From: Phycisphaerae bacterium
GTDB lineage: Bacteria > Planctomycetota > Phycisphaerae > UBA1845 > Fen-1342
DNA: 64,000 bases
Assembly: GCA_028279405.1 (NCBI GenBank)
Contig: JANQNU010000065.1
Coordinates: 1 to 64,000, forward strand
Direction: 5' to 3'
In this document: positions 50,450 through 56,534 of the stretch, piece after piece
Position numbering within the stretch: position 1 is the stretch's first letter
How the letters are laid out: each line of letters begins with the position of its first letter
Program-made: the position numbers and the translations under genes
Notes under the pieces: model-generated
What the model was told of the DNA's origin: nothing
Databases searched by the model: none
Seen by the model: the letters and a program-made list of their open reading frames with translations, nothing else

Positions 50450-51589
50450 ATGGAACTCAAGAACCTTCAGAAACATGTCCAGACGCTGGCAACGCTCTCG
50501 GAAACGGAATCGCCGGTCATCAGTTGCTACCTGCGCCTCGACGAAGGACGCATTGCGGATCGTAACTTCCTCGACGGCACGTTCGGCTCGCTCCGACAGG
50601 GGCTGACGGGCGACGCGCGACGTTCGTTTGATGAGGCCGTCGCGCGAATCGAGTCTTACCTCGCACGGGAGCTGATGGTCGAGGCGGAGGGGATTGCACT
50701 CTTCTCCCGCGCCGGTAGCGATCCGTTCTTTCTGCCGTTGCAGTTCCGCGTCCCGCTACCGAACTGGGTTGCTTCCGATACGACCCCGAACATCTATCAC
50801 CTTGTCGAGCTCAAGGACAACTATCACCGCTACGTCGTGATGATCGCCGCCCACGATAGCGTCCGGATTCTGGAGGTGAACCTCGGCGAAGTCACGGAAG
50901 GGCTATGGCAACAACGACCGGAGCTTCGGCGCCGTGTCGGGCGCGAATGGTCGAAGGCACACTATCAGGATCATCGGCGGGAGCGCGAGCAGCGTTTCAT
51001 CAAGGAGCAGATCCGGGTTCTGGATCACCTGATGTCCGCCGGCGGTTATACGCATCTGGTGCTGGCCGGGCACTCGACGGTGACAGCTCCGGTTCGCGAG
51101 CTGCTCCCGAAGCATCTGGCGAGCAAACTCGTAGACGTCGTGCCGGCGTCATCCCGGATGCCAGTCGCGGATGTCGTTCGCGCAACGATAGCGGCGTTCG
51201 TCGAGGCCGAGGAGCGCGAGTCTCGTAGTGTGGCCGAGCGGCTCGACCGACAGCTGCGCACCGGCGGTCTCGCCGTCTCCGGGACCGGCCCGACGCTGGA
51301 CGCGCTACGCTCGGAACGCGCCGATACGCTGGTGTTGGCCAGTGACTATTCGCCAGGCCGCGGATGGGCGTGTACGGAATGTGGCCGGATGGCCGAGGGA
51401 GCGGTACCGACGGCCTGTCCGGACTGCGCCGCAACCGCGATTCAGGAGATCGACATTCGGGAGGCAGTTGTCCGGCTGGCCGAGCAGCAGGGGCGTCCAG
51501 TCGAAGTCGTCAACGAGAGTGCGGCACTCCAGCGTCGCGGCGGCGTCGGGTGCCTGCTCCGCTATCGCAGCGCTGAGGATTACGCTTAG
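50450..51589 (+). CDS. Bacterial archaeo-eukaryotic release factor (baeRF) family protein
   Basis: 379 residues related to eRF1/Pelota/Vms1 domains 2 and 3, probably baeRF family 10. The N-terminal part starts SPVISCYLRLDEGR; the central part has HRREREQRFIKEQ and THLVLAGHSTVTAPV; the C-terminal part has LVLASDYSPGRGWACTECG with a second CPDC pair forming a small zinc site, and LQRRGGVGCLLRY. No GGQ motif is present, so peptide release in the classical way is unlikely. AGGGAGG precedes ATG 50450. Related bacterial proteins are suspected ribosome-rescue or tRNA-cleaving factors (inference). Confidence 0.65.
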   Translation: MELKNLQKHVQTLATLSETESPVISCYLRLDEGRIADRNFLDGTFGSLRQGLTGDARRSFDEAVARIESYLARELMVEAEGIALFSRAGSDPFFLPLQFRVPLPNWVASDTTPNIYHLVELKDNYHRYVVMIAAHDSVRILEVNLGEVTEGLWQQRPELRRRVGREWSKAHYQDHRREREQRFIKEQIRVLDHLMSAGGYTHLVLAGHSTVTAPVRELLPKHLASKLVDVVPASSRMPVADVVRATIAAFVEAEERESRSVAERLDRQLRTGGLAVSGTGPTLDALRSERADTLVLASDYSPGRGWACTECGRMAEGAVPTACPDCAATAIQEIDIREAVVRLAEQQGRPVEVVNESAALQRRGGVGCLLRYRSAEDYA

Positions 51590-51626: not shown

Positions 51627-51655
51627 TTGCCTGACAGGCGCGTTGCGACTACGAT
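51627..51655 (+). promoter_or_regulatory. Promoter of the small envelope-protein cluster
   Basis: TTGCCT (51627-51632), an exact 17-bp spacer and TACGAT (51650-51655), 45 bp before ATG 51701. Confidence 0.55.
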
Positions 51656-51700
51656 TTCTCGGTGAATGTCCTTCCGAATGAAGCAATGGAGCAGAATCGG

Positions 51701-51931
51701 ATGTCGCTTCGACGCATGCCTTGGATTTCGGCACTAACACTGACGTTTGCCCTGCTGGTCGCGTGTGTCGAGCCGGCACTCGCACAAGAGGATCTCGGTC
51801 CGTACTACGGGAAGGGGATCCAGACGGTGCAGGAAAGCAAACCGTGGCTGCAATGGCTCGTCGGAACCCTGCTGATTGCGGCCTGTGTACTGGCTGCGAT
51901 CAAGAACCCCCACCGAACCCATTTGGACTAG
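51701..51931 (+). CDS. Small exported membrane protein
   Basis: 76 residues: signal peptide (ALTLTFALLVACVEPALA), a short polar stretch (QEDLGPYYGKGIQTVQ) and one membrane helix (WLVGTLLIAACVLAAI) with a basic end. ATG 51701 has GGAG 9 nt upstream; longer in-frame starts (51662 GTG, 51686) lack this. First gene of a four-gene plus-strand cluster of small envelope proteins. No family recognised. Confidence 0.6.
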   Translation: MSLRRMPWISALTLTFALLVACVEPALAQEDLGPYYGKGIQTVQESKPWLQWLVGTLLIAACVLAAIKNPHRTHLD

Positions 51932-51969
51932 TCCGCTCCCAAAAAAGTTGTACCGTTAGGGGAGTGCCC

Positions 51970-52251
51970 ATGCGAAAGACGACGCTGCTTGCGACGCTCG
52001 TTGCCCTGAACCTCGGCCTCTTCGCCGGGATCGTCATGATCGCCTACCAGCCCACGCCGGCCTATGCGCAGGCGGCGGCGCTGTCCGGCAACTACATGAT
52101 GGTGACCGGCGAGATCCAGAACGAGTACGACGCGATTTATATGATTGACCTGCGCGAGCGAATCCTGCATTCGTTCATCTATGAGAGAGGTCGGCGGCGG
52201 CTGATGTACACCGATTCGCGCGACCTCGAACGGGATTTTCGTAACAACTGA
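51970..52251 (+). CDS. Small exported protein, paralogue 1
   Basis: 93 residues from ATG 51970 (AGGGGAG upstream). A signal or anchor helix (LVALNLGLFAGIVMIA) precedes a mature domain of about 55 residues: SGNYMMVTGEIQNEYDAIYM, then IDLRERILHSFIYERGRRRL. This matches the next gene in pattern (GxYxM...Q...IDxxxERxxxxxY). The pattern could be a tiny beta-domain. No family recognised. Confidence 0.6.
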   Translation: MRKTTLLATLVALNLGLFAGIVMIAYQPTPAYAQAAALSGNYMMVTGEIQNEYDAIYMIDLRERILHSFIYERGRRRLMYTDSRDLERDFRNN

Positions 52252-52278
52252 CCGACACCGGTCGGTGGGAGTGATTCC

Positions 52279-52632
52279 ATGCAGGCTTCTTCCGAATCCT
52301 CGCAGACGGTCGATACCCGGACGTTCACCATCGGCGTCCTGAGTGTCACGGCGACGGTTCTGTTCGTCGGCCTGATGATGCTGATGATGCAGCCACCGAC
52401 GGCGAATGCGATCGGCATGAACGATCGCGGCGGCGACTACATCATGTGCACGCAGCAGTTGACCACGTCTCAGGAAGGTTTGCTGGTCATCGATGCCGCC
52501 GCCGAGCGAATGATCCTGTACGCCTACGATTTCAACCAGCGCCGGATGCAGATGTTCGACGGGTTCGAGTTGAATCGTCTGCTGAAGCGCCCGCCGCCGG
52601 CCGTCAAGGATCAGGGGACGCGCCGCCGATAG
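52279..52632 (+). CDS. Small exported protein, paralogue 2
   Basis: 117 residues. A longer cytoplasmic start, a helix (LSVTATVLFVGLMMLMM), then GGDYIMCTQQLTTSQEGLLV and IDAAAERMILYAYDFNQRR, the same small domain as paralogue 1, and a basic tail (RLLKRPPPAVKDQGTRRR). It follows paralogue 1 by 27 bp. Tandem duplication is the simplest origin. Confidence 0.6.
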   Translation: MQASSESSQTVDTRTFTIGVLSVTATVLFVGLMMLMMQPPTANAIGMNDRGGDYIMCTQQLTTSQEGLLVIDAAAERMILYAYDFNQRRMQMFDGFELNRLLKRPPPAVKDQGTRRR

Positions 52633-52673
52633 GGGCCGTCGCGCTGATCCCGGCTTTCAAGGAGGGAATGGCC

Positions 52674-53303
52674 ATGGCACGATCGGGAGGCCCGATACGT
52701 CGCTCGTTCTTCCTCCTCTCGGTGCTGACCATTCCCGTATTGCTTGGCGGCTGTCCCTTTCCTGTAGAAAACGCGCTCACCGGTACCTGGATATTGAGCC
52801 GCGGCGCGCTGCGCGCAACCTTTACCTTTACTGCCGCTGACGGGGACGACGTCCTGCAACGAAGTGATGGCAACACGCTCGAACCGGTCGATCCGGAAGC
52901 GTTCCCGGAGGCGTTGCGACCACTGGCGGAGTCCTGGAACCAGCGTCTGTCCGACGTCAACGCCGCTATTGAGGCAGCCTTGCCCGACCAGGTGACGGTT
53001 TCGTTCCCGCAACCGAGGGTCATCCGAGTCGCCGACGCGGCGAATGCCAGTAGCGCCGGCAGCGGCTTGATCAACGAAGCGAACGAGTTCGTCTTCATCG
53101 GCGACCTCTCCGGCGACGCCACCGGCGACGATACAGGCGGCGGCGTGGCCCTCGAGCTTGCCACGATTACCGGCAGCTTCGAAGACACCGATCGTCTCTC
53201 CGGCCGCGTGACGCGGATTCAAACGCTCGCGTCGGGCCAAGGCGATTCGGCCGTGATCCTGACCATCGATATCACTGTGGAGTTCACAGGCGAGCGCTCA
53301 TAG
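52674..53303 (+). CDS. Small lipoprotein
   Basis: 209 residues with a lipoprotein signal ending LLGGCPF. The mature domain begins with LTGTWILSRGALRATFTF, a lipocalin-like or beta-barrel-like opening strand, and ends with ILTIDITVEFTG. AAGGAGGG lies upstream of ATG 52674 at good spacing (an ATG at 52668 is too close). Last of the small envelope-protein cluster, 42 bp behind paralogue 2. Confidence 0.6.
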   Translation: MARSGGPIRRSFFLLSVLTIPVLLGGCPFPVENALTGTWILSRGALRATFTFTAADGDDVLQRSDGNTLEPVDPEAFPEALRPLAESWNQRLSDVNAAIEAALPDQVTVSFPQPRVIRVADAANASSAGSGLINEANEFVFIGDLSGDATGDDTGGGVALELATITGSFEDTDRLSGRVTRIQTLASGQGDSAVILTIDITVEFTGERS

Positions 53304-53996: not shown

Positions 53997-56387
53997 TCAG
54001 GATGGACGGGGGTAGTTCCGCGGATACGGGCCCAGCACCGGCGGATGTGGGCCCATGATGGGTGGTTGAAAGATGGGCGGCGCGGGCAGCGGCGCCTGGA
54101 GGCTCGCTGGCCTTGATACTTCTGGCCGCGGGCCGACGAGGAAAGCGCTAAGATCGTCGGCGGTCATTGGGTGTGCGAACAGGTAGCCTTGGCCGTACTC
54201 GCAGTCGAGCATCTGCAAGCCGACGACCTGATCCTGGTGTTCGATACCCTCGGCGACCGTCGACATCCCGAGGTTTCGCGCGAGCGTAATGACGGCGTGT
54301 GCGACGGCGAAGAGCGAGCGTCCGCGGGACATATCGGATACGAAGGCCCGGTCGATTTTAACAACGTCGAATGGCAAATTGTGCAGGCCGGACAGGGACG
54401 ACAGTCCGGTGCCGAAATCGTCCATGGCCAGGCGGATCCCGCGGGCTTTCAGCCGCCGGAGCACGTTCGTGAGCTCGTGTTGGTTCTCGAGCACCTGACT
54501 TTCGGGCACCTCGAGTTGCAGTGCGGCGGGCGCGAGGCCGGTTTCCGCGAGGATTGCATCGAGTCGGCGGATGAAGTCTTCACTAGCGAGCTGGGTTCGG
54601 GAAAGATTCACGCTGACGGTCGGGGGGGCGTGTTCGGGATCGCTCCGCTGCCAGCGGACGTGTTGTTCGCACGCCTGTCGCACGACCCAATCGCCGATTT
54701 CGCCGATGACGCCGGTCTCCTCTGCTACGGGGATGAATTCCCCCGGCGGAATGAGCCCGAAACGCGGATGATTCCACCGCAAGAGGGCTTCGGCCCCCAC
54801 CACCCGGCCGGTCTCGAGCGACAGGATGGGCTGGTAGAGCACCTGAAACTCGTTAGCGCGCAAAGCGCGGCGCAAGTCAACCTCGATCTCCAGGCGGCGC
54901 AGAACGCGCTCGCGCATGGCCGCATCGAACAGGACGTAGCGCCCCTTCCCGGCCAGTTTGGCCTCGTACATTGCGGTGTCAGCGTCGCGCAGCAATTCGT
55001 CCGCTTGTCGATAGCCGTCGTGGTAGGTAACGACGCCGATGCTGACGGTCGAGAAAACCTCGTGCTCGCCGAGGCTGTATGGACTCGCGAACTCGTGCAG
55101 CAGCCCCTCTGCCACTGCGGTCGCATCGTCCGGCGATTGGATGTTGCCGCGAATGACGACGAACTCGTCGCCGCCGAGGCGCGCCGCGGTGCAGCCGCCG
55201 TCGTCGAGATCGAGCGTGTCTGAGATGTCGAGATGCCTGCGGAGCCGGGCGGCGATCTCGCGCAGCATTGCATCGCCTATGTCGTGCCCGAGACTGTCGT
55301 TGATGAGCTTGAAGCGGTCGAAGTCGAGGAAGAAAACGGCAAAGCCGGCGGCCGCCGGTTCGGTCGCCCGGTGTACGTAATGCGTCAGACGATCGAGCAA
55401 CAACGAACGGTTCGGGAGCCCGGTTAGCGGGTCGAGCATGGCCATCTTGCGCAGCTCGGCCTCCGCAGCTTTTCGAGCGGTAACATCAACGCGCAGCGAG
55501 ACGTACTTCTCAATAACACCGGCCGGATTTCGGTACGGCGTGATCGTGGTATCGACCCAGAAGAGAGACCCGTCGCGCGCCCGGTTGCAAATCTCGCCGC
55601 GCCACCAGTCGCCGCCGGCAATCGTCCGCCACATGTCGGCCCAGAACGAGGTCGGGTGGCACCCCGAGTTGATGACTTTGTGCGACTTGCCGACAAGCTC
55701 GGCGCGACTGTACTGAGAGATCCGACAGAATGGCTCGTTGGCCTCGATGATGATCCCGCGGTGGTCGGTCACCGAGCAGATGACGTTCTGATCCAGTGCC
55801 TGCTGCAGGGCCTGGAACTCGAAGTGGCTCCGTGCAAGCAGCTCGCTATGATGCGCGACGGTTTCACGCAGGTCGGAGATGCGCGACTGAACGTGGCGCT
55901 CGAGCGTCCACTTCTCGGTCAATGCCAAGCCAAGCTGGCGCACCTCCGCAGGATCGAACGGCTTCTTGAGAATCAGCAGTCGCGCCGAACCGCCGATCGG
56001 CGCCAGGGATTCGGCCCAGACGAGGTCGGAGTGCGCGGTGCAGATGACGACCTGCAACGTGTCATCCACCGCCCACAACCGGCGAATGGTCTCCACGCCG
56101 TCCCAGCCCGGCGGCATGTTCATATCGACGAACGCCAACGCGTACGGCCGGCCGGCATCCAGTGCCCGTTCGACCAGTGCAAGCGACTCCGCTCCCTGAA
56201 TCGCGGCATCGACCGCAAACGGGACAACGTCGGTGGTCGGTCCCGATATCCCGCCAGGCTGCGAACGTTCCGATGGCGTGATCGATGAAAGGATCTTCCG
56301 GAAGTACCCGTGAATCACCGGGTCATCGTCGACAACCAGCACACGACGATTCGGCTCAGACGAGCGGCTACCCACGAAGTCCCCCAT
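53997..56387 (-). CDS. Response regulator with PAS, GGDEF and EAL domains
   Basis: 796 residues. Receiver domain (about 1-140) with VLVVDDDPVIHGYF, phospho-acceptor aspartate in AFVDMNMPPGWDG and the KKPF lysine; PAS with PAC (about 195-310); GGDEF (about 320-490) with an intact RLGGDEFVVI near residue 405; EAL (about 505-760) with VGAEALLRW near 530 and the DDFGTGLSSLSGL metal-site segment. Both cyclic-di-GMP synthase and phosphodiesterase motifs are intact. A proline-rich tail follows. AAGGGAAG precedes ATG 56387. It would convert phosphorylation and PAS input into c-di-GMP level. Confidence 0.93.
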   Translation of the reverse strand: MGDFVGSRSSEPNRRVLVVDDDPVIHGYFRKILSSITPSERSQPGGISGPTTDVVPFAVDAAIQGAESLALVERALDAGRPYALAFVDMNMPPGWDGVETIRRLWAVDDTLQVVICTAHSDLVWAESLAPIGGSARLLILKKPFDPAEVRQLGLALTEKWTLERHVQSRISDLRETVAHHSELLARSHFEFQALQQALDQNVICSVTDHRGIIIEANEPFCRISQYSRAELVGKSHKVINSGCHPTSFWADMWRTIAGGDWWRGEICNRARDGSLFWVDTTITPYRNPAGVIEKYVSLRVDVTARKAAEAELRKMAMLDPLTGLPNRSLLLDRLTHYVHRATEPAAAGFAVFFLDFDRFKLINDSLGHDIGDAMLREIAARLRRHLDISDTLDLDDGGCTAARLGGDEFVVIRGNIQSPDDATAVAEGLLHEFASPYSLGEHEVFSTVSIGVVTYHDGYRQADELLRDADTAMYEAKLAGKGRYVLFDAAMRERVLRRLEIEVDLRRALRANEFQVLYQPILSLETGRVVGAEALLRWNHPRFGLIPPGEFIPVAEETGVIGEIGDWVVRQACEQHVRWQRSDPEHAPPTVSVNLSRTQLASEDFIRRLDAILAETGLAPAALQLEVPESQVLENQHELTNVLRRLKARGIRLAMDDFGTGLSSLSGLHNLPFDVVKIDRAFVSDMSRGRSLFAVAHAVITLARNLGMSTVAEGIEHQDQVVGLQMLDCEYGQGYLFAHPMTADDLSAFLVGPRPEVSRPASLQAPLPAPPIFQPPIMGPHPPVLGPYPRNYPRPS

Positions 56388-56534
56388 CTTACTTCCCTTG
56401 TCTTCCGGCAAACTCACCCTCGTGCGCAAAAGACCGCGGCAGCGCTGCCGCCTCCGATCCGCCGCGCCGGTACCGCGTCAATCGCAATAATATAAGAAAG
56501 AATAATAACCCGGTCCCACGCCGAGCGCTCTCGA

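Follow-up and report, generated by a model that had tools for sequence, protein, structure and literature searches.

Which of the four small envelope-protein genes that lie side by side on a contig of a Phycisphaerae bacterium belong together, and what might their products form? The genes are found in a 64,000-nucleotide stretch of DNA (here called the window; assembly GCA_028279405.1, contig JANQNU010000065.1). ORF analysis of the window places g1, A, B, and a lipoprotein gene in the same direction, separated by gaps of 38, 27, and 41 nt. The first gene, g1 (51686..51931, plus strand), encodes a signal peptide, a short linker, one membrane helix, and a basic tail, IKNPHRTHLD. The g1 ORF ends at 51931, and starts at 51662, 51686, and 51701 would give 89, 81, and 76 aa; the true start is uncertain between ATG 51686 (81 aa) and ATG 51701 (76 aa). 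Gene A (51970..52251, plus strand; 93 aa) encodes a membrane helix with a near-invariant Asn14, an AxAQ site, and one predicted four-strand blade-like domain. Its paralogue B (52279..52632, plus strand; 117 aa) combines a membrane helix bearing IGxLxxTAxxL with one such predicted domain. The lipoprotein gene (52674..53303, plus strand; 209 aa), whose lipobox LLGGC was recognized by eye, falls outside the conserved unit described below. Preceding g1 in the window, a gene at 50459-51589 resembles baeRF family 10 and ribosome-hibernation factors and has a rubredoxin-like zinc-ribbon stretch at about residues 303-326; no counterpart of it was found in the other fetched loci. On the minus strand, an 810-aa ORF at 53997-56429 appears, by eye, to encode receiver, PAS, GGDEF, and EAL domains.

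The conserved unit, with high confidence, is three genes (g1, A, and B) rather than four. A was detected in 54 of the 61 genomes examined from the family and order, own genome counted. Among 40 fetched loci, B adjoins A in every one and g1 is present in 38 (one locus, L065, meets a contig edge). The pattern extends to 140 A-containing genomes of the class: B adjoins A in all 137 loci with room for it and lies downstream in 134, the other three (L108, L246, and L260, all of family f18) having the order g1-B-A. In this set g1 lies upstream of A in 133 of the 137 assessable loci. The 140 loci were selected on a match to A (80 of them from the A matches listed in family and order relatives and class genomes), so that the counts for B and g1 presuppose A. 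After one round of retraining on its own matches, the g1 model matches 137 ORFs across these loci, three of them weakly (E 0.002-0.008; L036, L048, and L217). Even so, the presence of B and g1 next to A in nearly all 140 genomes is far beyond chance. Four loci (L168, L170, L171, and L173) have overlapping A and B frames. One further locus (L113) has a single g1 with two A-B pairs around it.

The fourth gene behaves differently. The preliminary description had treated all four genes as one cluster, and this part of it did not survive: a homologue of the lipoprotein occurs in 7 of 60 relatives (8 of 61 genomes with its own; E<=0.01), and the five strong homologues are separated from the triad by 19 kb or more or lie on different contigs. 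Co-occurrence in relatives, the check which that description itself proposed, thus holds for g1, A, and B, which stay together in 133 to 137 of 137 loci, and fails for the lipoprotein. Genes downstream of the triad differ among relatives. The lipoprotein is a local neighbor outside the conserved unit, and a search of Pfam and NCBIfam with it returned no family. Once it is removed, nothing points to an outer-membrane component.

A “clear promoter” had also been described before g1. The best site in the window, TTGCCT-17 nt-TACGAT (51627..51655, plus strand), is weak: it matches at 8 of 12 positions, is equalled or beaten in 172 of 1000 shuffles, and lies below the scanner threshold, and a sigma-70 scan at the reported promoter coordinates gave nothing at threshold. 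In relatives, 24 of 59 regions upstream of g1 have a site of at least 9/12, against 2.2 expected, often of the form TTTAC[GC]..TATAAT. Some genomes occur in both of the locus sets used (L036-L075 and L144-L175), and the promoter counts, like the residue-conservation counts below, merged identical sequences only. Gene neighbors were considered as a clue to function and set aside. An HYExAFE-family gene (NF038001) lies within 1.2 kb upstream in 79 of 132 loci from relatives of the order and class, and bioB within 1.5 kb downstream in 38 of 126; these genes and hisS are frequent companions but far from universal, and they name no pathway.

The trio is widespread in the class, and its domain extends further. 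Among 298 sampled class genomes, a profile of closely related A sequences matches 219 and a broader A profile matches 233. Detectable A is absent from the other 65, and some of the misses listed are near-complete genomes from families f19, f21, f23, and f25; because several of these genomes are of high completeness, the trio is not essential to the class. In a sample of the phylum the A profile matches 71 of 294 genomes, 57 of these outside the class. The domain is mostly single-copy in the 19 loci fetched from outside the class (L124-L142), although tandem domain genes occur in L124 and L130 and chains with two domains occur in L134, L141, and L142 (two in the last). No g1 match was found in these 19 loci. 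In six of them (L125, L128, and L131, and L135-L137) the genes after an A-like gene encode two products, a helix-turn-helix-like protein that also has a membrane segment and an OmpA-like lipoprotein; the helix-turn-helix call is a reading of the sequence, with an excisionase match at E 0.04 only. A B-seeded scan of 84,980 species confirmed 32 loci, all titled planctomycetes, and the distribution beyond the phylum is drawn from this pattern scan alone, an earlier scan seeded with A alone having given no match. Separate A and B genes are present in 31 of these 32 loci and g1 in 30; in L175 one ORF encodes both A and B. The three genes constitute a single small-protein module, ancient in the planctomycete class Phycisphaerae.

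A and B were correctly recognized in the preliminary description as tandem paralogues with a small shared domain. A search of the window's genome with either protein returns the other as the second-best match (E 1.1e-4 and 2.2e-5), and profiles of the shared domain align with a probability of 99.1 (E 6.7e-19). The shared motif is conserved; conserved domain residues are Y42, Y57, D60, and R84-D85-L86 in A and Y54, D72, and Y81 in B. The helices in front of the domains are also conserved. In the A helix, Leu10 and Asn14 occur in 77 of 77 sequences and Leu17 in 75. By a crude count of any Asn in residues 9-24, the helix has an Asn in 139 of 140 genomes, and the lone exception (L251) belongs to family f18, in which A and B are swapped, and has an A that looks B-like. 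Following the A helix is a signal-peptidase-type AxAQ site (Ala31 in 74, Ala33 in 76, and Gln34 in 73 of 77). The B helix has Leu21 in 77 of 77 sequences, and Ile18, Thr24, Ala25, and Leu28 in 60-72. The signal-peptidase-type site of B is weaker, with AxA in most B sequences. No conserved cysteine is found in the alignments of A or B.

In AlphaFold2 models built from 32 and 33 sequences, A and B are both predicted to start with a membrane helix and continue into a four-strand meander (pLDDT 85.8 and 87.8), with one further short strand in B beyond the four-strand domain. The modeled domain looks like a single beta-propeller blade. Structural matches to A are mostly single propeller blades and the Bacillus subtilis protein YmzC; the list for B is more mixed. 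Foldseek and VIA comparisons identified no significant family for either protein, with no Foldseek match below E 0.1, and the best Z scores, 6.6 and 6.1, are within the range of unrelated folds. Sequence searches were equally silent: no Pfam or NCBIfam family matched g1, A, or B; 46 A members matched no Pfam propeller family at E<=0.1; 33 B members gave a single match to such a family (SGL, E 0.07); and a PDB profile search with A and B returned nothing convincing. Within the searches made of Pfam, NCBIfam, and PDB sequences, the earlier statement that nothing matches a known system therefore stands for the three proteins of the trio. The inner strands of the predicted sheet are hydrophobic on both faces (residues 42-45 and 55-59 of A are each at least 90% hydrophobic), as in a blade held between neighbors, and an isolated A or B sheet is therefore unlikely to be stable.

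Comparison with known propellers brings out both the likeness and the oddity of these proteins. Blades of the DPP4 family and of the WD40 proteins Hsv2, Prp19, Nup133, and Sec12 have the same four-strand antiparallel meander as is predicted for A and B, and their inner strands are likewise hydrophobic on both faces; A aligns with such blades over 45-52 residues at Z 5-6. However, A and B have one blade per chain, rather than 4-12 blades closing a ring within a single chain, and a membrane helix in front, and they lack sequence similarity to propellers, the structural matches being not significant. YmzC (PDB 3kvp) is also a small precursor protein, so named in its entry, with one blade-like sheet. 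All 45 of its resolved residues superpose on A (rmsd 1.4, Z 6.6, 7% identity, where a Z below 8 can reflect a common arrangement), and it superposes on B with an rmsd of 1.6 and Z 5.5. Yet YmzC has 7-9% identity to A and B and comes from another phylum. According to an eLife 2019 study (PMC6805158), propellers are thought to be descended from single blades, and isolated single WD40 blades from PkwA and WRAP were unfolded monomers, with only constructs of two or more blades assembling. Those blades resemble A and B in being isolated blades treated as protein units; in contrast to the PkwA and WRAP blades of that study, A and B would be pairs that occur in nature, are apparently anchored in the membrane, and have been retained by evolution. 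The two-domain proteins from other classes of the phylum (L134, L141, and L142) belong to the same domain family by profile and have one N-terminal hydrophobic segment, and differ from A and B in carrying two blades in one chain with no g1 match beside them.

In an alignment of 70-73 g1 sequences, the tail and the end of the helix are conserved and the signal core is not: Phe72 and Lys73 each occur in 57, Arg77 in 72 (72/73), His79 in 48, and Asp81 in 44. The C-terminal tail was tried as a genome-wide sorting motif and rejected; the window's genome has two matches to the pattern, one of them g1 itself, and the backwards control gives the same number. Of the three family f2 genomes, G027 and G038 have a fusion in which an exported thioredoxin domain at the N-terminus precedes the usual g1 helix and tail (L073:9759-10391, minus strand, and L264:3523-4146), and the third, G034, has a plain g1 in L074. 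The fusions have the thioredoxin motifs WCGYC and WCGPC, and the G027 protein matches Pfam Thioredoxin at E 2.9e-16. An exported thioredoxin on the N-terminal side of g1 fits the membrane side proposed for g1 below, and it hints at thiol/redox chemistry or cofactor handling at the outer face of the inner membrane.

These features can be assembled into a small inner-membrane complex of g1, A, and B, with the A and B blades paired outside and the g1 tail in the cytosol, a reading with about an even chance of being right. A and B are each predicted to have one N-in membrane helix, followed by the four-strand antiparallel sheet outside the cytoplasm. The two helices would run parallel, with the invariant Asn of A and the IGxLxxTA face of B forming the packing contact. 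The A blade would pair with the B blade, since a sheet of this kind is not expected to be stable by itself, and several pairs might form a ring; the two-blade chains found outside the class, read as gene fusions, hint that blades act in pairs. With the opposite topology (N out, C in), g1 would place its conserved short tail, KNxxRxHLD, in the cytoplasm. The proposal is supported by the finding that A and B are never seen apart in 137 assessable loci, by the overlapping frames in four loci, and by the promoter-like sites before g1 in relatives. Physical contact is reasoned from genetics and structural prediction, and any role is a guess held with low confidence; the most likely is a scaffold or sensor that connects something on the outside of the inner membrane with a partner in the cytosol.

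Covariation offers no more than a hint, and none of its signals was used as support. Between the A and B helices, six of six settings ranked a parallel, same-depth register (offset 12) first; the permutation P was 0.03 in this run but 0.12 in the other. Shuffled pairings strip out phylogeny, and a score above theirs is therefore little proof. The pair ranked second overall links the two helices. Between the blades, a signal at antiparallel sum 115 (P 0.002, in one of six region pairs) falls on the strand 1-2 hairpin of each paralogue and may be a paralogue echo. No covariation signal involved g1.

Several other accounts of the trio must be weighed against an inner-membrane complex. A and B could be ordinary secreted proteins, released after signal-peptide cleavage as free periplasmic blades of about 60 residues, with g1 a separate protein that is merely co-transcribed. 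The near-invariant AxAQ of A and the AxA of most B sequences, with a proline preceding the cleavage-type site as in signal peptides, favor this reading, and these sites mean that the helices may indeed be cleaved and the blades free. The invariant Asn of A would then be unexplained. Leu10, Asn14, and Leu17 of A and the IGxLxxTAxxL of B are conserved as much as the domain, which would not be expected of a disposable signal, whereas the signal core of g1, in the same operon, is unconserved; on balance, secreted blades are possible but rather unlikely. It is also unlikely that the trio supplies accessory subunits to a larger known membrane machine encoded elsewhere, such as a respiratory complex, a translocase, or a secretion system. 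Its wide occurrence in the class, its small single-helix proteins, its varying gene neighbors, and its lack of a catalytic motif would suit such a part, but no consistent machine adjoins it (HYExAFE is at 79/132 and BioB at 38/126), and A and B keep to each other and to no other constant partner.

In a stronger form of the inner-membrane complex, A and B would contribute naturally occurring single blades to a hetero-oligomeric propeller that closes on the membrane's outer face; every blade would be tethered by its own helix and held by the invariant Asn of A, and g1 would connect the assembly to the cytoplasm. We regard this form as rather doubtful. The complex across the whole envelope originally envisaged, in which all four exported proteins including the lipoprotein take part, is highly improbable. 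It draws on the four co-directional window genes with gaps of 27-41 nt and is contradicted by synteny, the lipoprotein being absent from most relatives and unlinked where its homologue is strong.

No paper on the g1, A, or B genes was found, an absence only as good as the searches made. No family for the trio exists in the libraries searched, and its genes are defined targets for knock-out and tagging. A and B offer a natural case for testing whether single blades function when paired and membrane-tethered, a question that arises from the blade study (PMC6805158). If the hetero-oligomeric reading were true, they would be a propeller made from separate one-blade chains, which has been proposed for the origin of propellers and was not achieved with the single blades tested in that study (PMC6805158). 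The trio, kept in about four fifths of the sampled class genomes and with relatives of A in other classes, probably matters to how these bacteria live.
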